A DNA stretch of 64,000 nucleotides from Lysobacter changpingensis (GTDB lineage: Bacteria > Pseudomonadota > Gammaproteobacteria > Xanthomonadales > Xanthomonadaceae): contig NZ_JADWPE010000004.1 of assembly GCF_017308985.1 (NCBI RefSeq), forward strand, positions 1 to 64,000, written 5' to 3'. The notes under the pieces are model-generated. The model was not told where the DNA came from. It ran no database searches and saw only the letters and a list, made by a program, of their open reading frames with translations. Numbering within the stretch: the first letter of the stretch is position 1; each line of letters starts with the position of its first letter. A program made the translations under genes and the position numbers. Below, piece after piece: positions 37,608-51,214 of the stretch.

Positions 37608-39614
37608 ATGGACATCACCCGCTTCCACGCCGCCTTCTTCGAGGAAAGCCGCGAAAACCTGGACGCCATGGAAGCGGGCCTGCTCGCGATGGAGTCCGGT
37701 TCGGCAGACGGCGAGACCATCAACGTCGTCTTCCGCGCCGCGCATTCGATCAAGGGCGGCGCGGCGACGTTCGGCTTCACCGCGATCAGCGAACTGACCC
37801 ACCAGCTTGAAACGCTGCTGGACGAAGCGCGCAGCGGCCGCCGCCAGCTCGACGCCGATGCGATCGGCGCGCTGCTGGTCGCCGGCGATGCGCTGCGCGG
37901 CCTGCTCGGCGCGGCCGAACACGGCGATGCGATCGACGAGGCGAATCTCAAGCGCGCGCACGACGGCCTGGCGAAGATGATGGGCCGCGAAGTCGCGTCC
38001 GCCGCGAAGACCGAAGCGAAGGCGCCGGAAATCGCCGAATGGCGCATCGGCTTCAAGCCGGCGCCGTCGATGTTCCTGTCCGGCAACGATCCGCTGCGCA
38101 TCCTGCGCGAGCTGTCCAGCCACGGCGAACTGGGCGTCACCGCGCTCGACAACACGCTGCCGAAGTTCTCCGAACTCGATCCGTACGAGGCCTACCTCGC
38201 CTGGGACCTGATGCTGCCCGGCAGCGTGCCGCGCAGCGCGATCGACGACGCGTTCGCGTGGGTCGAGGACCAGTGCGAACTCGCCATCGAAGGCATTCCG
38301 GCCACGTCCGCCGTCGCGCCGCCGCCGTCGCCGCTGCCGGAAACGCCCGACAACGTCGTCGCGATCGACACGCGCAACGGCGGCAACGACGCGCGCAAGG
38401 CCGGCGCGGGCGACGCCGCCGACTCGTCCATCCGCGTCGCCGTCAACAAGGTCGACGCGCTGATCAACCTGGTGGGCGAGCTCGTCATCACCCAGGCGAT
38501 GCTGCGCCAGCGCTCCACGCAGCTGGACCCGGTCGCCAACGAACTGCTGCTGTCGGGCCTGGAACAGCTCGACCGCAACACCCGCGACCTGCAGGAAGCG
38601 GTGATGGGCGTGCGCATGCTGCCGGTGGAATTCGCCTTCAGCCGCTTCCCGCGCATGGTCCGCGACCTCGCCGCGCGCCTGGACAAGAAGGTGCGCCTGC
38701 GCACCAGCGGTGAAGCCACCGAGCTGGACAAGGGCGTGATCGAGAAGATCGTCGATCCGCTCGTGCACCTGGTGCGCAACGCCATCGACCACGGCCTGGA
38801 GCTGCCTGCCGAGCGCCGCGCGGCCGGCAAGGACGAGACCGGCACGATCTCGCTCAACGCGCAGCACCAGGGCGGGCACATCGTCATCGAGATCAGCGAC
38901 GACGGCCGCGGCCTGGATCGCGAGCGCATCCTGCGCAAGGCCGCCGAACGCAACCTGCCCATCGGCGACAACCCGACCGACGCGCAGGTGTGGGACCTCG
39001 TATTCCATCCGGGCTTCTCCACCGCCGAACAGCTCACCGACCTGTCCGGTCGCGGCGTCGGCATGGACGTGGTGAAGAAGAACATCGCCGCGCTCGGCGG
39101 CCAGGTCGAGATCCGGTCGAAGAAGGGCGCCGGCACCACGGTGTCGATCCGCCTGCCGCTGACGCTGGCGATCCTCGACGGCATGACCGTCGCGGTCGGA
39201 GGCGAAGTCTTCATCCTGCCGCTGAATTCGGTGATCGAATCGCTGCAGCCGGCCGCGGGGGATGTACGCACCATCGCCGGCGAGGCGCGCGTGCTGCGCG
39301 TGCGCGAGGACTACCTGCCGCTGATCGACCTGGCCTCGCAGTACGGCCTGTCCGCCGGCGCGTCCGCCCACGCGCATGCCGGCGCGAATCCGGGCAACGG
39401 AATCGCGGTGGTGGTCGAAGCCGACGGCCAGCGCCTGTCGCTGGAAGTCGACGAACTGCTCGGCCAGCAGCAGGTGGTGGTGAAGAACCTGGAAGCGAAC
39501 TACCGCCGCGTGCAGGGCATTTCCGGCGCGACGATCCTCGGCGACGGGCGCGTCGCGCTGATCGTCGATGTCGGCGGGCTGGTGCAGGCGCAGCGGATGC
39601 CGCAGGCGGCTTGA
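37608..39614 (+). CDS. cheA2: Chemotaxis histidine kinase CheA (second copy)
   Basis: A full-length CheA of 668 residues. P1 domain with H46 (RAAHSIKGGAATFGF), a domain at about 138-235 of the kind found between P1 and P3 in many non-enteric CheA proteins (EWRIGFKPAPSMFLSGNDP), then P3 (about 275-340), P4 with NAIDHGLELP and GRGVGMDVV, and P5 CheW-like (about 525-665). It differs clearly from the first CheA, so it is not a recent duplicate. A REP doublet lies between it and cheW. Confidence 0.94.
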   Translation: MDITRFHAAFFEESRENLDAMEAGLLAMESGSADGETINVVFRAAHSIKGGAATFGFTAISELTHQLETLLDEARSGRRQLDADAIGALLVAGDALRGLLGAAEHGDAIDEANLKRAHDGLAKMMGREVASAAKTEAKAPEIAEWRIGFKPAPSMFLSGNDPLRILRELSSHGELGVTALDNTLPKFSELDPYEAYLAWDLMLPGSVPRSAIDDAFAWVEDQCELAIEGIPATSAVAPPPSPLPETPDNVVAIDTRNGGNDARKAGAGDAADSSIRVAVNKVDALINLVGELVITQAMLRQRSTQLDPVANELLLSGLEQLDRNTRDLQEAVMGVRMLPVEFAFSRFPRMVRDLAARLDKKVRLRTSGEATELDKGVIEKIVDPLVHLVRNAIDHGLELPAERRAAGKDETGTISLNAQHQGGHIVIEISDDGRGLDRERILRKAAERNLPIGDNPTDAQVWDLVFHPGFSTAEQLTDLSGRGVGMDVVKKNIAALGGQVEIRSKKGAGTTVSIRLPLTLAILDGMTVAVGGEVFILPLNSVIESLQPAAGDVRTIAGEARVLRVREDYLPLIDLASQYGLSAGASAHAHAGANPGNGIAVVVEADGQRLSLEVDELLGQQQVVVKNLEANYRRVQGISGATILGDGRVALIVDVGGLVQAQRMPQAA

Positions 39615-39626
39615 CCGCCCGATGTT

Positions 39627-39712
39627 GCAGCCCGGGCAAGGCCGCAGGCCGCACCCGGGGTGCACGCCCCAACAAACGCAATACCCGGGTGCGCTGCGCT
39701 TACCCGGGCTAC
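39627..39712. repeat. REP doublet 12 (long + short arm), cheA2-cheW gap
   Basis: The left head is GCAG and the left core is GGCCGCAGGCC. It starts 12 bases after the cheA2 stop and ends 23 bases before the cheW ATG. Confidence 0.85.
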
Positions 39713-39735
39713 AAAAGAACCAGCGAGAGCCCGAC

Positions 39736-40218
39736 ATGAACGACATCACCGCCACCATCGAATCGGCCGACGAGTACCTCACCTTCGCCCTGGGCGAGGA
39801 GGAGTACGGCGTGGAGATCCTGAAAGTCCAGGAAATCCGCGGCTACGACACCGTCACCCGCCTGCCCGACGCGCCCGACTACATCAAGGGCGTGATCAAC
39901 CTGCGCGGCACCATCGTGCCGGTCATCGACATGCGCCTGAAGTTCCGCCTCGCGAAGGCCGAATACAACGCGCTCACGGTGATGATCGTGCTCAACGTCG
40001 CCGACCGCGTCGTGGGCATGGTCGTGGACAGCGTCTCCGACGTGGTCCGCCTGGAGGCCGAGCAGATCCGCCCGGTGCCGGAAATCGGCGCGACGATCGA
40101 CCGCCAGTTCATCACCGGCATCGGCACGCACGGCGAGCGCATGCTGATCCTGCTGGAGATCGAGAGGCTGATGACCAGCGCGGAAATGGGCCTGGTCTCT
40201 CACGCGGACGCCGCCTGA
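39736..40218 (+). CDS. cheW: Chemotaxis coupling protein CheW
   Basis: CheW couples CheA to the receptors. The 160-residue protein is a single CheW domain with EYLTFALGEEEYGVEILKVQ and the conserved YIKGVINLRGTIVPVID. The start at 39736 gives a normal N-terminus; the upstream in-frame extension lies in the REP and the end of cheA2. Confidence 0.96.
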   Translation: MNDITATIESADEYLTFALGEEEYGVEILKVQEIRGYDTVTRLPDAPDYIKGVINLRGTIVPVIDMRLKFRLAKAEYNALTVMIVLNVADRVVGMVVDSVSDVVRLEAEQIRPVPEIGATIDRQFITGIGTHGERMLILLEIERLMTSAEMGLVSHADAA

Positions 40219-40394
40219 TCGCAACATCGAAGCAGTAACCGGTCGCCGCGGGCGCACATCGCGCGCGGCATCGGGGTTTCCGCAAACGCACGCCAGGCGG
40301 AGCGCATCCGCCAAGCCAGCGCAGTTGTAGTCGCACCCAAGGTCCGCCGTCCCCCCGGGCGATCTTTCGTGAGTCACGAATCAGCGTAGTGATG

Positions 40395-40424
40395 GACGCC
40401 GCATCGCACGCGGCGTCTTCGATT
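40395..40424 (+). terminator. Possible terminator after cheW
   Basis: The stem GACGCCGC/GCGGCGTC with a 7-base loop is followed by TTCGATTT. It lies within 60 bases of the next gene, so it could equally be a leader hairpin of the receptor gene at 40449. The 230-base gap holds no sigma-28 box that I can see. Confidence 0.45.
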
Positions 40425-40448
40425 TGACGACACCCGAGGACCACATCG

Positions 40449-42344
40449 ATGGACACCGCAAGGACCCCGGCCGCCTTCGCCGACCGTCCCCTGTCGCGCC
40501 GCGCCGCCACGCCCGCGCCGTTCTGGCGCCGCCTGGCTGCCCTCTTCTCCCCCGCCGCCGACGACCGCATCCAGGACGCGCACGTCGCCGACCTGGAGGG
40601 CCGCATCGCCGCGATCGACCGCGTGCAGGCGGTGATCGAGTTCGATCTCGACGGCACCATCGTCCACGCCAACGAGAACTTCCTGGGCACGCTGGGGTAT
40701 CGGCTCGACGAGATCCGGGGCCGCCACCATTCGATGTTCGTCGATCCGGCGCATGCGAAGAGCGAGGAGTACCGCGCGTTCTGGGCGCGGCTCGCGCGCG
40801 GCGAGTTCGATGCCGGCCAGTACCGGCGCCTCGGCAGGGACGGCCGCGAAATCTGGATCCAGGCGTCGTACAACCCCGTGTTCGACCGCGCGGGACGTGC
40901 GCGCAAGGTGGTGAAGTTCGCCACCGACATCACCGCGCAGAAGATGCAGGCGGCCGATTCCGCCGGCCAGCTGGCGGCGATCGGCAAGTCGCAGGCGGTG
41001 ATCGAGTTCGACCTCACCGGCACCATCCTCGCGGCGAACGACAACTTCCTCGCGGTGATGGGCTATGCGCTGGACGACGTGCGCGGCCGGCATCACTCGA
41101 TGTTCGCCGAGGAGGCGTATCGCCACAGCGCGGAATATCGCGGCTTCTGGGACAAGCTCGGCCGCGGCGAATACGACGCCGGCGTGTACCGCCGCCTGGG
41201 CAAGGGCGGGCGCGAGGTGTGGATCCAGGCGTCGTACAACCCGATCCTCGACATGAACGGCCGGGTCGTGAAGGTCGTGAAGTACGCCACCGACATCACC
41301 ACGCAGGTGCGCGACACCCAGGCGCTGCAGCGCGCGGTCGAACAGACGCACGAAGTGGTCGGCGCCGCGCAGGCGGGCGACCTCACCCGCCGCATCGACA
41401 TGGCCGACAAGTCCGGCTCGATCGCGCAGCTGTGCGAAGGCATCAACGCGCTGGTGGACACGATGGCCGGCATCCTCGGGCAGATCAGGCTCGCCGCCGA
41501 CACGATCGGCCTGGGCGCGCGCGAGATCGCGTCGGGCAACAGCGACCTGTCGCAGCGCACCGAATCGCAGGCGGCGTCGCTGGAGGAAACCGCCTCGTCG
41601 ATGGACGAGCTGACCCACACCGTGCGCCAGAACGCCGACAACGCGCGCCAGGCCAACCAGCTGGCGATCGGCGCCACCCAGATCGCCGCGCGCGGCGGCG
41701 AGGCGGTGCGCGAGGTGATCGCCACCATGTCGCAGATCAGCGACTCGTCGAAGAAGATCGCCGACATCATCGGCGTGATCGACGGCATCGCGTTCCAGAC
41801 CAACATCCTCGCGCTGAACGCCGCGGTGGAAGCGGCGCGCGCAGGCGAACAGGGCCGCGGCTTCGCGGTTGTCGCCAGCGAAGTGCGTTCGCTCGCGCAG
41901 CGTTCGGCGAACGCGGCGAAGGAGATCAAGCACCTCATCGGCGATTCGAGCGAGCGCGTGGACACCGGCACGCGGCTGGTGCGCGGCGCGGGCGGCACGA
42001 TGGACGAGATCGTCGGCAGCGTGAAGCGCGTGGGCGAGATCGTCGCGCGGATCAGCGCGGCCTCGCAGGAACAGAGCGCGGGCATCGAGCAGGTCAACCA
42101 GGCCGTCGCGCAGATGGACGAGAGCACGCAACGCAACGCCGCGCTGGTCGAGGAGGCCTCCGCCGCCGCGCGCAGCATGGAGGAACAGGCCGCGCGGCTG
42201 ATGCAGACGGTGGCGGCGTTCCGGCTGGGGTCGAGCGATGCGCGGCGGGTGGCTGCGAACGAGGGGTCGGGCGGTGTGCGCGATGACGCGCGGACGATGG
42301 GGACGCTGCGGCAGGTGCCGTCGCGGTTGCCGGCGAACGATTGA
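40449..42344 (+). CDS. Soluble chemoreceptor with two PAS domains (BdlA/Aer-like)
   Basis: A cytoplasmic methyl-accepting protein of 631 residues without a convincing transmembrane segment. Two similar PAS domains (about 55-160 and 175-285) share the pattern RGRHHSMF...EYR.FW..L.RGE and are probably a tandem duplication. A linker and a long signalling domain (about 340-610) follow, with the hairpin tip [29 protein letters not shown] is the layout of BdlA in Pseudomonas; energy or redox sensing is likely but the ligand is unknown. Confidence 0.9.
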   Translation: MDTARTPAAFADRPLSRRAATPAPFWRRLAALFSPAADDRIQDAHVADLEGRIAAIDRVQAVIEFDLDGTIVHANENFLGTLGYRLDEIRGRHHSMFVDPAHAKSEEYRAFWARLARGEFDAGQYRRLGRDGREIWIQASYNPVFDRAGRARKVVKFATDITAQKMQAADSAGQLAAIGKSQAVIEFDLTGTILAANDNFLAVMGYALDDVRGRHHSMFAEEAYRHSAEYRGFWDKLGRGEYDAGVYRRLGKGGREVWIQASYNPILDMNGRVVKVVKYATDITTQVRDTQALQRAVEQTHEVVGAAQAGDLTRRIDMADKSGSIAQLCEGINALVDTMAGILGQIRLAADTIGLGAREIASGNSDLSQRTESQAASLEETASSMDELTHTVRQNADNARQANQLAIGATQIAARGGEAVREVIATMSQISDSSKKIADIIGVIDGIAFQTNILALNAAVEAARAGEQGRGFAVVASEVRSLAQRSANAAKEIKHLIGDSSERVDTGTRLVRGAGGTMDEIVGSVKRVGEIVARISAASQEQSAGIEQVNQAVAQMDESTQRNAALVEEASAAARSMEEQAARLMQTVAAFRLGSSDARRVAANEGSGGVRDDARTMGTLRQVPSRLPAND

Positions 42345-42383
42345 GCCCCTCCCGATCAATGCAGCGATGCGACTGCAGCTCTT

Positions 42384-42469
42384 GTAGCCCGGGTAAGGCC
42401 GCAGGCCGCACCCGGGGCAACGCCGCCGGAGACGCGTGACCCCGGGTGCGCTTCGCTTACCCGGGCTAC
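42384..42469. repeat. REP doublet 13 (long + short arm)
   Basis: It lies in the 296-base gap between two receptor genes, upstream of a possible sigma-28 box. Its right-arm GTG is in frame with the downstream receptor. Confidence 0.85.
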
Positions 42470-42567
42470 GAAAGCCGCTACGAAAGCCGCATCACCTCGC
42501 CACAAGTGACCGACATCCCACTTCCCCCATTCAGCAATAAATCCCGGCAAATACCGCAACTTCGATC

Positions 42568-42594
42568 TGAATCAAAAACGCGCGGCGCCGATAA
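42568..42594 (+). promoter_or_regulatory. Possible sigma-28 promoter of the sCache receptor
   Basis: A perfect -10 box GCCGATAA at 42587-42594, but the sequence 11 bases upstream (TGAATCAA) is a poor -35. It lies about 47 bases before the chosen start codon. Confidence 0.5.
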
Positions 42595-42640
42595 CGACGG
42601 CAAGACGCGCTTCCGCGTCGAGTCCCTGTCGCGGTGCCCC

Positions 42641-44812
42641 ATGCCGAACGTCCTTTCGATTTTCCGTTTCTCCTCCCTCTCCCTGCGCGCGCGCTTCGCG
42701 TGGATGATCGCGGTGCTCGCGCTCGGGCTGGTCGTGCTCACCGGCATCGCGGTGCAGCGCAACTACACCGGCCAGATCGCCGACGAGCGCGCCCGCCTGC
42801 ACACGCGCGTCGCCGCCGCCATGACCGTGGTGCGGCGCTACGCCGACCTGGCGCAGGCCGGAAAGCTCGCCGACGACGTCGCGCGGCGCGAGGCGCTGCT
42901 GGTGCTCTCCACGCTGCGCAGCCGCGACGGCACCGATTACCTGTGGGTCAACGACGAGCATCCGCGCATGCTCATGCACCCGCACCAGAAGCAGCTCGTC
43001 GGCAAGGACCTCACCGATTACGTCAGCCCCGACGGCAAGCACATCTTCGTGGAGATGGTGAAGGTCGCGCGCGACGGCGGCGGCTTCGTCGATTACCAGT
43101 GGGCCAAGCCGGGCGTCGAAGGACCGGTGCTGAAGATCTCCTACGTCGAGCACCTGCCGCGCTGGGGCTGGGTGGTCGGCAGCGGCGAATACACCGACGA
43201 CATCGCCGCGCGCGCGTGGCGCTTCGCCGGCATGCTGCTGGTGGCGGCGGCGATCGCGCTGGCCGCGGTGATCGTGCTGTGCCTGGTGATCGCGCGCAGC
43301 ATCGCCGCCTCGGTGCGCGGCGCGACGGAGGCCGCGCAGGCGGTGGCCGACGGCCGCTTCGACCTGGTCATCCACACCGAACAGCGCGACGAGATCGGCC
43401 AGCTGCAGCAGGCGCTGGAGCGCATGTGCCGCCGGCTGGAGGACTATTCCAGCGCGCAGGGCGAAATGGCGCGCCGACACGACGAAGGCCAGATCAGCTT
43501 CCGCATCGACGAATCCGCCTTCCCCGGTGCGTACGGCCGCATGGTGCGCGAGACTAACGGGCTGGTCGCCTCGCACATCGATTCGATCCAGCGCGCGTTG
43601 CAGATCATGGAACGCTACGCGATCGGCGACCTCTCGCAGGACATGGACCGCCTGCCCGGCGAGAAGGCCGTGCTGACGCGGACGATGGATTCGGTGAAGG
43701 CGAACCTGCGCGCGATCAACGGCGAGATCCGCCGCCTCGCCGCCGCCGCGGCCGACGGCGATTTCGCCGCGCGCGGCGACGCGTCGCGCTTCGACCACGA
43801 TTTCCGCGCGATGGTCGACACGCTCAACCGCCTGATGGCCACCGCCGACGAGAACCTCTCCGCGCTGTCCACGCTGCTGCAGGGCGTGGCGAAGGGCGAT
43901 CTCGCCCAGCGCATGCACGGCGATTTCCGCGGCGTGTTCGCGCGCATGAGCGTGGACGCGAACGAGACGGTCGACCGCCTCGAGCAGATCGTCGGCCGCA
44001 TCCGCGAAGGTTCGGACGCGGTCGGCAGCGCGGCGGCGGAAATCGCCGCGGGCAACCACGACCTCTCGCAGCGCACCGAGTCGCAGGCGGCGTCGCTGGA
44101 GGAAACCGCCTCGTCGATGGAGGAACTCACCTCCACCGTGCGCCAGAACGCCGACAACGCGCTGCAGGCGGACGGCCTGGCGCGCGATGCGGCGGAAGTG
44201 GCCTCGCAGGGCGGCGCGATCGTGCACCGCGTGGTGCGCACGATGAGCGCGATCAGCGAATCCTCGCGCCGCATCGGCGACATCATCGGCGTGATCGACG
44301 GCATCGCGTTCCAGACCAACATCCTGGCGCTGAACGCCGCGGTGGAAGCCGCGCGCGCCGGCGAACAGGGCCGCGGCTTCGCGGTGGTCGCCGGCGAAGT
44401 GCGTTCGCTCGCGCAGCGTTCGGCGAATGCGGCCAAGGAAATCAAGCAGCTGATCACCGATTCGGTGGTGGAAGTGCAGCAGGGCACGCAGCTGGTCGAC
44501 CAGGCGGGGCGCACGATGGAGGACATCGTGACCAGCGTGAAGAAGGTCAGCGACATCATCGCCGACATCTCCGCCGCCTCGCGCGAGCAGAGCGCGGGCA
44601 TCGAGCAGGTCAACGGCGCGATCACGCAGATGGACGAGGGCACGCAGCAGAACGCCGCGCTGGTCGAGCAGGCCTCCGCCGCGGCGCGCAGCCTGGAGCA
44701 GCAGGCCGCCGAGCTGGTGGAAACGGTGGCGGTGTTCCGGCTGTCGCGATCGGGTGCAGCAGCGGGTGCGACGGTAGATACGGAGCTGGCGCGGATCGCG
44801 CGGCGGCGGTAA
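42641..44812 (+). CDS. Methyl-accepting chemotaxis protein with single Cache domain
   Basis: A membrane receptor of 723 residues. Transmembrane segments near 19-37 and 191-213 enclose a periplasmic sCache_2-type domain with DYLWVNDEHPRMLMHPH and GWVVGSGEYTDDI. A HAMP region follows the second segment, then further HAMP-like linker repeats (about 300-460) and a signalling domain (about 480-700). The Cache type often senses small carboxylates; the actual ligand is unknown. I chose the ATG at 42641, after the -10 box, over the REP-encoded start far upstream. Confidence 0.92.
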   Translation: MPNVLSIFRFSSLSLRARFAWMIAVLALGLVVLTGIAVQRNYTGQIADERARLHTRVAAAMTVVRRYADLAQAGKLADDVARREALLVLSTLRSRDGTDYLWVNDEHPRMLMHPHQKQLVGKDLTDYVSPDGKHIFVEMVKVARDGGGFVDYQWAKPGVEGPVLKISYVEHLPRWGWVVGSGEYTDDIAARAWRFAGMLLVAAAIALAAVIVLCLVIARSIAASVRGATEAAQAVADGRFDLVIHTEQRDEIGQLQQALERMCRRLEDYSSAQGEMARRHDEGQISFRIDESAFPGAYGRMVRETNGLVASHIDSIQRALQIMERYAIGDLSQDMDRLPGEKAVLTRTMDSVKANLRAINGEIRRLAAAAADGDFAARGDASRFDHDFRAMVDTLNRLMATADENLSALSTLLQGVAKGDLAQRMHGDFRGVFARMSVDANETVDRLEQIVGRIREGSDAVGSAAAEIAAGNHDLSQRTESQAASLEETASSMEELTSTVRQNADNALQADGLARDAAEVASQGGAIVHRVVRTMSAISESSRRIGDIIGVIDGIAFQTNILALNAAVEAARAGEQGRGFAVVAGEVRSLAQRSANAAKEIKQLITDSVVEVQQGTQLVDQAGRTMEDIVTSVKKVSDIIADISAASREQSAGIEQVNGAITQMDEGTQQNAALVEQASAAARSLEQQAAELVETVAVFRLSRSGAAAGATVDTELARIARRR

Positions 44813-44837: not shown

Positions 44838-45051
44838 GTGGGTGAGGGTCGGGGCAAGCGGTGCGACGACGCCGTCGCGCTGTTGTAGCCCGGGTAAGCG
44901 AAGCGCACCGCGCCATTGTGTAATTCAGTTGTGGTTGCGATGACCGCGCCGCAGCGCGTTGCATCGATAAAGCGGCCATTCTCTTGGCGATCCCCGGGTG
45001 CGCTTCGCTTACCCGGGCTACAAGAGCAACATCGGCCTCCCTGCGCCCCAC
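44838..45051. other. Gap between the sCache receptor and the TonB-domain gene
   Basis: It contains the interrupted REP doublet 14 and no gene. The middle of the REP (about 44911-44990) is visibly lower in GC than its surroundings. Confidence 0.6.
44885..45021. repeat. REP doublet 14 (short + short arm, interrupted)
   Basis: The GTAG head and CTAC tail are normal, but the element is 137 bases instead of 76-86. The left arm breaks off after GCGCACC and about 80 bases of other sequence separate it from the intact right arm. The inserted segment begins CGCCA and ends TGGCG. Confidence 0.75.
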
Positions 45052-45081
45052 AAAAGAAAAACGCGCCGTCTCCGGCGCGTC
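45052..45081 (-). terminator. Rho-independent terminator of the TonB-domain gene
   Basis: On the minus strand the stem ACGCGCC/GGCGCGT with a 6-base loop is followed by TTTTTCTTTT. It lies 32 bases after the stop codon. Confidence 0.88.
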
Positions 45082-45112
45082 TTCCTCCCCGCGATGGCGG
45101 ATGCAGCGGTGC

Positions 45113-45424
45113 TTACAGCGAGAAGTCCAGGCGCACCTTGCCCTTGCCGCCGCCCGGAGCGAACTCCCACTGCTTCACGGCGCGCACGGCCGACTGCTCG
45201 AACACGCGGGCCGGCTTGGCGTTGACGACCGAGACGCTGGCGACCTTGCCGGCCGGGTCCACGGTGAATTCGACTTCGACGAAGCCCTGGGTGCCGGCAC
45301 GGGCCGCTTCGGCCGGGTACTGCGGCTCGACGCGCTTGATCGGCTTGAGGTCGGCCGAGGCCGGGGCGGCGAAGGACAGGGCCAGCACGGCGATGCCGGC
45401 GGCGGTGAGGAGGGAACGGCGCAT
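45113..45424 (-). CDS. Small secreted TonB C-terminal-domain protein
   Basis: A 103-residue protein with a cleavable signal peptide ([20 protein letters not shown], predicted cut after ASA at 24). The mature part, about 79 residues, is a TonB C-terminal domain with [20 protein letters not shown] and a terminal [15 protein letters not shown]. True TonB keeps an uncleaved N-terminal anchor that contacts ExbBD; this one has none and should be a free periplasmic protein. It is the only minus-strand gene in the chemotaxis region. A strong sigma-28 box and its own terminator mark it as a monocistronic, probably FliA-dependent unit. No TonB-dependent receptor is nearby. Its function is unknown. Confidence 0.88.
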
Positions 45425-45463
45425 GGGATGGCTCCTTGGGGATGGTGTCTGGCGACACCGGGG

Positions 45464-45490
45464 TCATCGGCCGGTTCCGCGGAATCTTTA
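45464..45490 (-). promoter_or_regulatory. Sigma-28 promoter of the TonB-domain gene
   Basis: On the minus strand TAAAGATT (45490-45483), 11 bases, then GCCGATGA (45471-45464). This matches TAAAGTTT-N11-GCCGATAA at 7/8 and 7/8. It gives a leader of about 30 bases with AAGGAG before the ATG. Confidence 0.8.
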
Positions 45491-45647: not shown

Positions 45648-45674
45648 TAAAGTTTCCCTCCCCCGCGCCGATGC
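45648..45674 (+). promoter_or_regulatory. Sigma-28 promoter of the receptor at 45719
   Basis: TAAAGTTT at 45648-45655 is a perfect -35, followed by 11 bases and GCCGATGC (6/8). Together with the minus-strand box at 45464-45490 it makes a divergent pair of FliA promoters. Confidence 0.9.
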
Positions 45675-45718: not shown

Positions 45719-48418
45719 ATGTCCACCCTTGCACACCGTCGGCCGTCGGCCACCCTGCTGGACCGCTTCCTGGGTCCGGCCACCCGCCTGATGTCGCAGT
45801 TGCGCTTCAACCAGAAGGCCATCGTCATCGGCGCGGCCTTCATGCTCACCTGCGGCGTACTGGCCGGCATCCTCGTGGTGCGTTCCAACGCCGAGGTCAG
45901 CGCCGCGACGAAGCAACGCGACGCGGTCGTGGGCCTGGGCCACCTGCATCGCGCGATGCTGGCGATCCAGCAGCACGAGCTGCAGGTCGTGCGCAAGTTC
46001 GCCAAGGACGAGGTGTCCGACCAGGCGCTGCAGGAATCGGCCGCGCAGGTCGCGCGCGAACTCGACGCGCTCACTGCCTGGCAGGCGCGCAACCTGCCCG
46101 CGTCGGCCCTGCCGGCCGCGCTGAAGGACGCCCGCGCCGCGTGGGACAAGGCCAACGGCGAACACGGCGATTCGGCCGCCGCCGCGACCGACCACGGTGT
46201 CGCGGTGCGCAAGCTGGGCGAAGTGCACGGCCTGATCGCCGACGAAACCGGCCTGGCGCAGGCCCAGAACCCCGCCGTGCTCTACATGGGCCGCGCCGCG
46301 ACCGTGTGGGTGCCGACGCTGGCCGAATACACCCAGCAGCAGAGCGCCACCGCGTTGCGCGTGCTGGGCGACGGCGCGATCTGGGTCGACGACCGCACCG
46401 GCCTGGCTGTCTCGCGCAACATGCAGGACTACGTGCGCACGCGTTCGGAAATCGAGATCAAGGACGCCGAAGAGGAAATGGCCGAGCTGGCCGCGACCAT
46501 CGGCGCGCCGTTCCGCAAGGCGCTCGATGCGGTCGCCAAGCAGAACGCCGACATCCAGAAGCACATCCTCGACGCCGAAACGCCGGTGCTGCCGGTGAAG
46601 ATCATGGCCGCGCGCACCGAGGCCACGCGCCTTGCGCTCGCCTCCGCGCTGTCGGCCGCGAACGCCTCGCTCGACCACGCCGCCTCGACGGAAATCTCGC
46701 GCCTGCAACAGCGCACCGCGTGGACGCTGGGCTCGTGCATCCTGATCCTCGCGCTGGCGACCTACCTGTTCCTCGGCTTCAGCCGCAGCACGCGCGCCGC
46801 GCTGAAGGAAGTGCAGGACGCCTCCGATCTGCTCGCACGCGGCGAATTCCCCGACGCGGTGCGCGTGGACAGCCGCGACGAAGTGCGCGACATCGCGCGC
46901 GGGCTGGAACGCGCCATCAACACGCTGCGCAACTTCGCGGGCGCGCAGCGTGAACTGTTCGAAGCGCACCAGGCCGGCGAGATCGACCGCCGCCTGCAAA
47001 GCGACGACTTCCCCGGCGCCTACGGCCAGATGGCCGGCGAAGTGAACACGCTGGTGGATTCGCACATCCAGGTGAATACCCGCGCGATCGAGATCGTCGC
47101 CGCCTACGCGCGCGGCGACCTGTCGCGCGACATGGACCGCCTGCCGGGCCAGAAGGCGCGCATCACCGACGCCGTGGATTCGGTGAAGAGCGGCATGAAC
47201 GCGATCAACGCCGAGATCAAGACGCTGGTCGACGCCGCCGTCGCGGGCGATTTCAGCCGTCGCGGCGATGCGTCGGCGTTCGAGTTCGTCTACCACGACG
47301 TGGTGCAGTCGCTGAACCAGCTGATGGCCACCGCCGAGGAAGGCCTGCACGAAGTCGGCACGCTGCTGTCGGCGGTCGCCGACGGCGACCTGAACCGCCG
47401 CGTCGAAGTGGAACTGCCGGGCCAGTTCGGCCGCCTCGCCGGCGATGCGAACCGCACCGTCGACCAGCTCGCGCAGATCGTCGGCCAGATCCGCCAGGGT
47501 TCGGATGCGATCAGCTCGGCCGCGGCGGAAATCGCCGCCGGCAACAACGACCTGTCGCAGCGCACCGAGCAGCAGGCGGCGTCGCTGGAAGAAACCGCCT
47601 CGTCGATGGAAGAGCTCACCAGCACGGTGCGCCAGAACGCCGACAACGCGCGCCAGGCCAACCAGCTGGCGCAGAGCGCGGCCGAAGTCGCCGGCCAGGG
47701 CGGCACGGTGGTGGGCGAAGTGGTCGAGACGATGAACGCGATCAACCAGTCGTCGAAGAAGATCGCCGACATCATCGGCGTGATCGACGGCATCGCCTTC
47801 CAGACCAACATCCTGGCGCTGAACGCGGCGGTGGAAGCCGCACGCGCCGGCGAACAGGGCCGTGGTTTCGCGGTGGTGGCCGCCGAAGTGCGCTCGCTCG
47901 CGCAGCGTTCGGCGAATGCGGCGAAGGAGATCAAGCAGCTGATCACCGACTCGGTCGGCAAGGTCGAGGAAGGCAGCCAGCTGGTCGACCAGGCCGGCCG
48001 CACGATGCACGAGATCGTGACCAGCGTGAAGAAGGTCACCGACATCATCGCCGACATCTCGGCGGCGTCGCAGGAACAGAGCTCGGGCATCGAGCAGGTC
48101 AACAACGCGATCACGCAGATGGACGAGGGCACGCAGCAGAACGCGGCGCTGGTCGAACAGGCGTCGGCCGCCGCGCGCAGCCTGGAACAGCAGTCCGAGC
48201 AGCTGGTGCAGACCGTCGCGGTGTTCCGCCTCGCGCAGGCCAGTGCCACGCAGGCCGCACGCGCCGCGCAGGCGACGGTGGTGGAGATGCCGGCGGCCAA
48301 GCCGCCGCGCGCCAAGCCCGCCGCGCCGGCCGCTTCCGCATCGCCCGCCAAGCCCGCAACGCGCAAGGTGCGCGCCACGGCGGCGGCGAATGCGGATGGG
48401 GATTGGCAGGAGTTCTGA
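45719..48418 (+). CDS. Methyl-accepting chemotaxis protein with CheR-tether tail
   Basis: A large receptor of 899 residues. Transmembrane segments near 33-54 and 335-355 enclose a helical periplasmic domain of about 280 residues, larger than the usual four-helix bundle. HAMP and HAMP-like repeats (about 356-590) and the signalling domain (about 600-830) follow, then an Ala/Pro-rich flexible linker ending DWQEF. That last pentapeptide fits the xWxxF tether that recruits CheR in enteric receptors. The ATG at 45719 is the first after a full leader; ATGs at 45671 and 45680 overlap or crowd the -10 box. Confidence 0.92.
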
Positions 48419-48594: not shown

Positions 48595-48639
48595 AAGAAG
48601 CCAAGGCGGGCGCCCAGCGAACCGAAGCACTCGCTTCTC

Positions 48640-48672
48640 ACTCCTCACCCTCGTTCCTCCTCACTCGCCCCT
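48640..48672. repeat. CTCGTTCC repeat before cheR
   Basis: CTCCTCACCCTCGTTCCTCC and CACTCGCCCC units end a few bases before the cheR ATG. Confidence 0.6.
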
Positions 48673-48678
48673 GGCCCC

Positions 48679-49533
48679 ATGCGTCCTTCCCCGCGCACCT
48701 CCGACGACCGCGAGTTCACCTTCGACGAACGCGACTTCCGCCGCGTCTGCCGGATGATCCGCGACCACGCCGGCATCCACCTGCACCCGCACAAGCGCGA
48801 CATGGTCTACAGCCGCCTCGCGCGGCGCGTGCGTGCGCTGGACATGGAACGCTTCGGCGATTACCTCGACTACGTCGAGGCCGATCCCGACGCCGAGCTG
48901 CAGGGCTTCATCAACGCGCTCACCACCAACCTCACCTCGTTCTTCCGCGAGTCGCACCACTTCGACCTGCTCGCCGACCACCTGCGCGCGCATTGCCGCG
49001 ACGGCGCGTCGATCTGGTGCAACGCCGCCTCCACCGGCGAGGAGCCGTACACGCTGGCGATCACCGCCTGCGAGGCGTACGGCACGATGACGCCGCCGGT
49101 GCGCATCCTGGCCACCGACATCGACACCAACGTGCTGCAGACCGCCGCGCGCGGCGTGTATCCGGTGGAGCGCATCAACGCGCTGTCGCTGCAACGGCGC
49201 CGCCAGTTCTTCCAGCGCGGCGACGGGCCCAACGCGGGGCTGTGCCGGGTCAAGCCGGAGCTGCAGGCGCTGATCGAATTCCGCCCGCTCAACCTGCTCG
49301 ATGCCGACTACGGCCTACGCGGCGGTTTCGACGCGGTGTTCTGCCGCAACGTGATGATCTATTTCGACAAGGCCACGCAGTACCAGGTGCTCACGCGCAT
49401 CGCACCGCTGATCGCGTCCGATGGCCTGCTCTTCGCCGGGCATTCGGAAAGCTTCGGCCACGCGCACGACCTGATCACGCCCTGCGGCCGGACCACCTAC
49501 CGCCCCGCCTCCCGCACCGACCCCCGCCGATAG
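48679..49533 (+). CDS. cheR: Chemotaxis methyltransferase CheR
   Basis: CheR methylates glutamates on receptors using S-adenosylmethionine. The 284-residue protein has the helical N-terminal domain (about 15-75, [20 protein letters not shown]). The SAM-binding domain has [14 protein letters not shown] near 115-128 and [14 protein letters not shown] near 219-232. It begins a compact cheR-cheD-cheB group and follows a receptor that carries the DWQEF tether. Confidence 0.96.
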
Positions 49534-49544
49534 ACGCAGCGACC

Positions 49545-50147
49545 ATGAACGCCGCCATTCCCGCCCGTCCCGCGATCGAGCCGGGCAGCTATTTCGATCC
49601 GGTGCTGCAGACCGAGGCGATCAAGCTGCTTCCGGCCGATTACCGCGTCACCGATCGCCCGATCGCGCTGGTCACGCTGCTGGGCTCGTGCGTGGCCGCG
49701 TGCCTGTACGACCCGATGCTGCAGGTCGGCGGCATGAACCACTTCATGCTGCCCGGCGGCGAAGCGGGCTCGGTGTCCTCGCGCTACGGCGCGCACGCGA
49801 TGGAACTGCTGATCAACGACCTGCTCAAGCGAGGCGCGCGCCGTGCGCGGCTGATGGCGAAGGTGTTCGGCGGCGGCAACGTGCTGTCGGGCTTCTACAG
49901 CGATCCGATCGGCACGCGCAACGCGAGCTTCGTGCTGGAATACCTCACCGCCGAGCGCATCCCGGTGATGGCGCAGGACCTGGGCGACATCCACCCGCGC
50001 AAGGTCTGCTTCTTCGCGCAGACCGGGCGCACGCTGGTCAAGCGCCTGCCGTCGGCACGCAACGACGTGATCGTCGACGCCGAACGCGCCTACTACGGTC
50101 GCCTCGCCCGCGAGCCGGTCGCCAGCGGCAGCGTGGAGTTGTTCTGA
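49545..50147 (+). CDS. cheD: Chemoreceptor glutamine deamidase CheD
   Basis: CheD deamidates receptor glutamines and can modulate CheA through receptors. The 200-residue protein has catalytic Cys49 in LLGSCVAAC, His66 in [11 protein letters not shown] and Thr44, matching the known triad. It ends SGSVELF, the same ending as the receptor at 51581-52753. The stop overlaps the cheB ATG (TGATG). Confidence 0.95.
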
Positions 50148-51214
50148 TGAACGCGGCCGTACGTACTCCCGCACGCGGTCCCATCCGCGTGCTCGTGGTC
50201 GACGACTCGGCGCTGGTGCGCCAGTTGATGACGCAATTGCTGGAGGCCGATCCGGGCATCCAGGTCGTCGGCAGCGCGGCCGATCCGTACATCGCGCGCG
50301 ACAAGATCAAGCAGCTCGAACCCGACGTGCTCACGCTCGACGTCGAGATGCCGCGCATGGACGGCCTGACCTTCCTGCGCAACCTGATGCGCCTCAGGCC
50401 CATGCCGGTGGTGATGGTCTCCACGCTGACCGAGCGCGGCGCGCAGGTGACGCTGGACGCGCTCGCGCTGGGCGCGGTGGATTTCATCGCCAAGCCCAAG
50501 CTCGACGTCGCGCGCGGGCTGACCGAATACGCCGGGCTGCTGATCGAGAAGGTCAAGCAGGCCGCGAAGGCGCGCGTGGTGCCGCCCTCGCCGGCCCGCG
50601 TCGCCGAGGCGTCGGCGATGCCGGCGGTGGCGTATCGCACGACGCACCGGCTGATCGCGATCGGCGCCTCCACCGGCGGCACCGAGGCGATCCGCGAAGT
50701 GCTCTCGCAGATGCCGGCCGATGCGCCGGCGACGGTGATCGCGCAGCACATCCCGGGCGCATTCAGCGCGCCCTTCGCCGATCGGCTTGATCGGCACAGC
50801 CGCATGACGGTGATCCACGTCGAACGCGACCAGGAACTGCTGCCGGGGCATGCGTACGTCGCACCGGGCGGTCGTCACCTGCGCGTGTTCCGCAGCGGTG
50901 CGCGCTGGCATTGCCGGCTCGGCGACGACGATCCGGTGCGCCGTCATCGTCCCAGCGTGGACGCGCTGTTCGATTCGGTGGCCGAACACGTCGGCGCCAA
51001 CGCCAGCGCCGCCCTGCTGACCGGCATGGGCGACGACGGCGCGCGTGGCCTGCTCGCCTTGCGCAAGGCCGGCGCGGCGACGATCGCGCAGGACGAGGCC
51101 AGCAGCGTCGTCTGGGGCATGCCCGGCGCGGCGGTCGCACTCGGCGCGGCGCAGGAAACCGTGCCGCTGTCGCTGGTCGCGCAGAAGTTGTTGTCGGGCA
51201 CCGCGCACGAGTAA
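50147..51214 (+). CDS. cheB: Chemotaxis methylesterase CheB
   Basis: CheB removes methyl groups from receptors when phosphorylated by CheA. In 355 residues, the receiver has D19-D20 and phosphoacceptor D65 ([12 protein letters not shown]). A linker follows, then the methylesterase domain (about 165-350) with the catalytic triad S175 (GASTGG), H201 and D297 (TGMGDDG). In Pseudomonas cheB sits next to cheA; here it is about 18 kb away with cheR and cheD. Confidence 0.97.

Follow-up and report, generated by a model that had tools for sequence, protein, structure and literature searches.

What would a bare TonB domain do among chemotaxis genes, behind a promoter of the flagellar sigma factor? TonB domains are power couplings for uptake, and the question is raised by a short gene, here called TonB-solo, in a 64,000-nucleotide stretch of Lysobacter changpingensis DNA (contig NZ_JADWPE010000004.1, positions 1 to 64,000 of the forward strand; hereafter the window). 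It lies back to back with the gene of a chemoreceptor, MCP3. Our analysis suggests that both genes belong to one, as yet undescribed, sensing unit; a published description of it was not found among the matches listed from the open-licence literature. The argument turns on the following features:

45113..45424, minus strand: TonB-solo gene, 103 amino acids (open reading frame, TonB_C match, modelled fold and selection)
45464..45490, minus strand: predicted sigma-28 box of TonB-solo, TAAAGATT-N11-GCCGATGA, 14 of 16 consensus positions, 39 nucleotides before the ATG
45648..45674, plus strand: predicted divergent sigma-28 box of MCP3, TAAAGTTT-N11-GCCGATGC, 14 of 16 consensus positions
45719..48418, plus strand: MCP3, a chemoreceptor of 899 amino acids with a periplasmic helical sensor between two hydrophobic segments, HAMPs, MCPsignal and a C-terminal DWQEF
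45890..46710, plus strand (approximate limits): periplasmic sensor of MCP3, an NIT-like double helical bundle outside the Pfam families
45052..45085, minus strand: hairpin and T-run behind the TonB-solo stop codon, a probable intrinsic terminator by its fold

An earlier note, made from the letters of the window, had described this gene as encoding a signal peptide and a bare TonB C-terminal domain, and this description held. The TonB_C family (PF03544) matched residues 33-98 with 72 bits (E 5.7e-20, cut-off 24.6). By reading, the N-terminus has a positive charge, a hydrophobic stretch and a cleavage-like site (APASA/DL), which makes about residues 1-24 signal-peptide-like; the domain, bare and complete, begins about eight residues past this site. 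With an AxA cleavage-like site and no cysteine behind it, the exported protein would have no membrane anchor, and a lipid anchor in particular is unlikely because no cysteine follows the hydrophobic stretch. The structural model (mean predicted local distance difference test score 82.5, block means of at least 90 from residue 31) had its best structure match in the TonB of the BtuB:TonB complex (2gsk_B, TMt 0.87, 1.4 Å) and contains the TonB-box-pairing strand. Strand pairing between TonB and the TonB box is described for FhuA:TonB in PMC11658791. Furthermore, the mature part is under purifying selection, with ratios of nonsynonymous to synonymous substitution (dN/dS) of 0 to 0.39 in nine pairs, and the core is invariant across 23 diverse sequences. 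The N-terminal segment is poorly conserved and has no conserved histidine (partly judged by eye).

Both boxes were scored over 16 positions of the general sigma-28 consensus, and with 14 matches each they surpass the flagellin box at 324 on the plus strand (13 of 16), as the earlier note had stated for TonB-solo, whose promoter it placed back to back with that of the receptor. These three boxes are the only sites in the window with at least 12 matches at spacing 11; when the mononucleotides of the window were shuffled ten times, six sites scored 12 and none higher. For the core TMAAG-N14-GCCGAT, 0.09 occurrences are expected in the window and two are present, back to back and 157 bases apart. 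In the whole genome we counted 17 such cores against five for the reversed control, and five of the 17 start with TAAAG. Elsewhere, a TAAAGTTTT-type sigma-28 core (G000:C3:1254775-1254799) was seen about 45 nucleotides before an open frame (L105:845 on), which by eye has an MHYT-type membrane-sensor-like start and then PAS/GGDEF-like sequence. Just upstream of the flagellin promoter, AATCACG heptamers stand head-to-tail at about 212-270.

Behind TonB-solo, where the earlier note had seen a textbook terminator, the hairpin with its flanks (45045-45105) folds with -34.7 kcal/mol (z -5.25). TTTTTCTTTT comes next, the T-run itself being paired in this fold; the automatic terminator scan has no entry for it. 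In addition, a repeated intergenic palindrome, GTAGCCCGGGTAAGCGAAGCGCACCCGGG-like and probably of the repetitive extragenic palindromic type, flanks the gene on both sides (about 44890, 45000 and 45590, by eye).

To follow the promoter through the family, orthologues were defined with one query sequence, in 12 genomes of the genus and then in 395 family genomes at E 1e-22. This search gave 50 TonB-solo copies from 43 genomes (at least eight loci were found by a contig scan), and we surveyed the 150 bases upstream of each copy. The core TAAAG-N14-GCCGAT was exact in 38 copies, had one mismatch in nine and was found in neither form in three; after correction of one start the counts were 39, nine and two, so that 48 of 50 copies carry it. 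In dinucleotide shuffles the exact core appeared in 0.02% and one mismatch in 0.31% (together 0.33%). The three copies first scored without the box were L066, the receptor-proximal one of L079, and L084 in the genus numbered 23. At L066 an exact core lies 81 nucleotides upstream of a later codon, and which codon is the start remains uncertain. Four copies outside the chemotaxis cluster, amid unrelated genes (L056, L068, L070, L073), all have the exact core. Tandem duplicates of TonB-solo were observed in three genomes (L069, L075, L079). On the receptor side, 48 locus rows, which count some genomes twice as named and unnamed copies, gave 33 exact boxes, 12 with one mismatch and three worse, with 35 exact after two start corrections. 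The expectation that the box would be conserved upstream of orthologues was therefore borne out.

The second line of evidence is the pairing itself. With a profile built on the transmembrane and sensor regions of MCP3, 45 of the 395 family genomes matched at E 1e-12, each with a single copy, four candidates being scored per genome. These 45 are the 43 carriers of the one-sequence search together with G033 and G077, where TonB-solo was found by profile. In all 45 the two genes share a contig on opposite strands, with 158-463 bases between the matched stretches. MCP3 is the constant neighbour, and cheW and cheA are often close. A genome with only TonB-solo or only the MCP3 sensor was not seen in either genome set searched, where the search for diverged TonB-solo copies in the other 350 family genomes used one sequence. 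Of 29 genomes given to the sensor profile, two matched, the own genome and G033. Among the 27 without a match, 22 are representatives of other genera, with FlhA over the cut-off in 17, and five belong to carrier genera but have no flagellar FlhA.

Presence of the pair also follows flagella. An FlhA match of full strength was found in 43 of the 45 carriers; both exceptions are incomplete assemblies, G018 (72%) with a weak FlhA match and G197 (81%) with none among the matches listed. Across the family FlhA exceeds the cut-off in 220 of 395 genomes, and the co-occurrence with the pair has a hypergeometric probability of 4e-10, a value that ignores kinship. In the two genera covered in full the agreement is clean: ten genomes of genus 1 have FlhA and TonB-solo and two have neither, and in genus 4 seven have both and three neither, the latter with FlhA-family matches under the cut-off that are type III secretion-like by score. 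In each of genera 3, 6 and 39, one or two genomes with both contrast with one or more that have neither. Flagella as such do not require the pair, since the sampled flagellated non-carrier genera lack both TonB-solo and MCP3. Taken together, the conserved box and the co-occurrence with FlhA strongly support, at the level of sequence, the link of TonB-solo to the motility regulon which the earlier note had proposed.

The own genome has 11 TonB_C loci, eight of which were read on both strands, and among these TonB-solo alone has a sigma-28 core in front. At L004 a core match lies some 1.3 kb off, on the other strand; at the other three TonB_C loci none of the genome-wide cores falls within 1 kb. 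A class-wide profile search at E 1e-24 (369 genomes, at most 13 candidates scored per genome) matched the own genome and none of the 368 others among the matches listed. At E 1e-14 we searched 25 family genomes, including the 22 representatives, of which G023, G098, G099, G112 and G137 are under the FlhA cut-off as judged from E-values. Matches occurred in 18 of the 22 and in none of G015, G038, G059 and G112. Frame lengths are an unreliable guide in GC-rich DNA, so 26 hit loci were examined individually; 25 matched on recheck and L127 (G044) did not. In the representatives the stretch before the domain is mostly long and, by eye, rich in alanine, glutamine, proline or charged residues, and no sigma-28 core (up to two mismatches, 300 nucleotides upstream of the matched domain) was found at the checked loci. 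L127 aside, we rejected these matches as TonB-solo, as they look like parts of longer, unlike proteins without the core. The remaining checked loci belong to genus 23 (L108, L109, L129, L131) and to a second match in the carrier G197 (L128).

Many of the representative loci match, over much of its length, a 360-residue lipoprotein-like relative (G000:C6:180332-181414, L104:1333-2415). Its start (LGCALAAC) resembles that of a lipoprotein, a long helical region with many charges follows, and the TonB domain at its C-terminus shares 52% identity with TonB-solo; it has close relatives over most of its length in other genera of the family. A tblastn search of plasmids gave 53 records, all below 60% identity among the matches listed; of three records inspected, the annotated one was rejected as TonB-solo, being part of an ordinary exbB-exbD-tonB set, and two carry no annotation. 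Neither exbB nor exbD was found among the 20 window open reading frames scanned.

In genus 23 (G033, G077, G128) TonB-solo shows about 50% identity and keeps its divergent position next to an MCP3-like receptor. The intergenic regions contain, on both strands, GG-N10-GC sites near the general sigma-54 consensus, with one or two mismatches in L084, in L108 and on the receptor side of L109. On its gene side L109 shows four, a level matched by roughly one in three mononucleotide shuffles. In Xanthomonas, sigma-54 (RpoN) has a bearing on the biosynthesis of flagella as well (PMC7280030). Genus 23 may thus have swapped sigma-28 for sigma-54-like elements, and these three genomes hint at motility control that was kept while the sigma factor changed.

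Around the pair, the window holds a chemotaxis cluster in the order cheA, cheW, a PAS-type and a Cache-type methyl-accepting chemotaxis protein, TonB-solo (reversed), MCP3, cheR, cheD and cheB:

37608..44812, plus strand: left part of the cluster, cheA, cheW and the PAS-type and Cache-type receptors
48634..51214, plus strand: right part of the cluster, cheR, cheD and cheB

MCP3 ends in DWQEF (48404-48418), which resembles the xWxxF docking peptide for CheR/CheB of other receptors. Its periplasmic part has the NIT fold, and a Pfam search of the sensor up to E 10 returned no family, NIT included, although HMMER filters drop most weak matches.

How may these elements work together? We see an even chance that they form a two-gene chemosensory module switched by sigma-28, in which TonB-solo is the periplasmic partner or input of MCP3. 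Sigma-28 would turn on TonB-solo and the divergent MCP3 together with the late flagellar genes, and TonB-solo would bind the periplasmic helical bundle of MCP3, by analogy with TorT and TorS. A second likely contact of TonB-solo would be the TonB box of ligand-loaded outer-membrane transporters; according to PMC9022066, loaded transporters expose this box to the periplasm. Either the free versus bound pool of TonB-solo or a ternary contact could then report transporter occupancy to the chemotaxis array. It is conceivable, if unlikely, that swimming in the Lysobacter group is steered in this full sense, with a free TonB domain made only in motile cells reading exposed TonB boxes and signalling to a dedicated chemoreceptor. 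If so, dozens of large substrates that are never free in the periplasm could direct chemotaxis via one receptor, and nutrients bound at the outer membrane may in this way guide movement. The fold would then have a novel use, in a TonB domain freed from its motor, controlled with the flagella and coupled to a chemoreceptor.

Several observations weigh against the module. The receptor-proximal TonB-solo copy of L079 has no sigma-28 box, the receptor box of that locus stays at three mismatches, and the genus 23 genomes lack the core before TonB-solo. Second TonB-solo copies come without a second MCP3. By eye, no TonB-box-like motif was found in the MCP3 sensor, and the contact of TonB-solo with TonB boxes, attractive as it is, is suggested by the modelled fold. 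The one-sequence search at E 1e-22 missed two carriers, so lone diverged copies of TonB-solo are possible. Finally, the pair lies in one cluster and maybe has one origin; therefore part of the co-occurrence may be due to linkage and shared ancestry.

This last point leads to the best surviving alternative, in which an ordinary periplasmic TonB_C protein was trapped early in the chemotaxis cluster, stayed beside MCP3 through linkage and was lost with the cluster, while serving a receptor-independent role at the motile stage such as contact with peptidoglycan or with the outer membrane. The confinement to one lineage among the class-wide matches listed and the linkage in 45 of 45 genomes would fit, but relocated copies keep the sigma-28 core and neither gene was seen without the other, and we regard this explanation as rather unlikely. 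Of the three roles offered by the earlier note, a soluble competitor is possible: free TonB domains would occupy TonB boxes, slow energised uptake and save proton-motive force for the flagellar motor, with the receptor as a co-regulated neighbour. Periplasmic TonB fragments inhibit in E. coli, and the complete TonB-box-binding fold, the missing linker to an energised complex, the sigma-28 box of extra copies elsewhere and the 37 plug domains of the genome agree with such a role. Nevertheless, it leaves the pairing with one receptor type unexplained, and among the 17 representatives of other genera that have FlhA no TonB-solo could be confirmed (L127 aside), which makes it quite unlikely. The proposed role in envelope or flagellar assembly near the rod/L-ring is highly improbable: a sigma-28 box and a periplasmic address would suit it, but sigma-28 genes are made after hook and basal body, TonB-solo sits with receptors and not with basal-body genes, the same 17 representatives gave no confirmed TonB-solo, and nothing we found points there. 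A decaying domain copy without function, to which the short single domain might point, is next to negligible given purifying selection, the invariant core in 23 diverse sequences and the conserved promoter. Sensor input, the third role, fits best, because TonB-solo pairs with one chemoreceptor type; the input would go to this chemoreceptor rather than to TonB receptors alone.

Regarded as a chemosensory module, the pair resembles several known systems in part. TonB-solo shares with the TonB energy transducers the whole fold, including the TonB-box-pairing strand; its nearest solved sequence is Vibrio TonB2 (2k9k), with the RVEPxYP motif common to both. TonB transducers have an N-terminal anchor with a conserved serine-histidine face. 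Unlike them, TonB-solo has, by reading, neither the membrane anchor nor the proline-rich linker, and it has a putative motility promoter. TorT-TorS and some other receptor systems are fed by a soluble periplasmic protein; the candidate partner here is a TonB domain and not a periplasmic binding protein. The sensor of MCP3 is 12% identical to that of the NIT-domain receptors (NasR NIT, PF08376), without a Pfam NIT match. With cell-surface signalling, which joins a TonB-dependent transducer to an anti-sigma factor, the proposed module has in common that the occupancy of outer-membrane transporters would be reported, but its hypothetical output would be swimming via a chemoreceptor instead of an extracytoplasmic function sigma factor.
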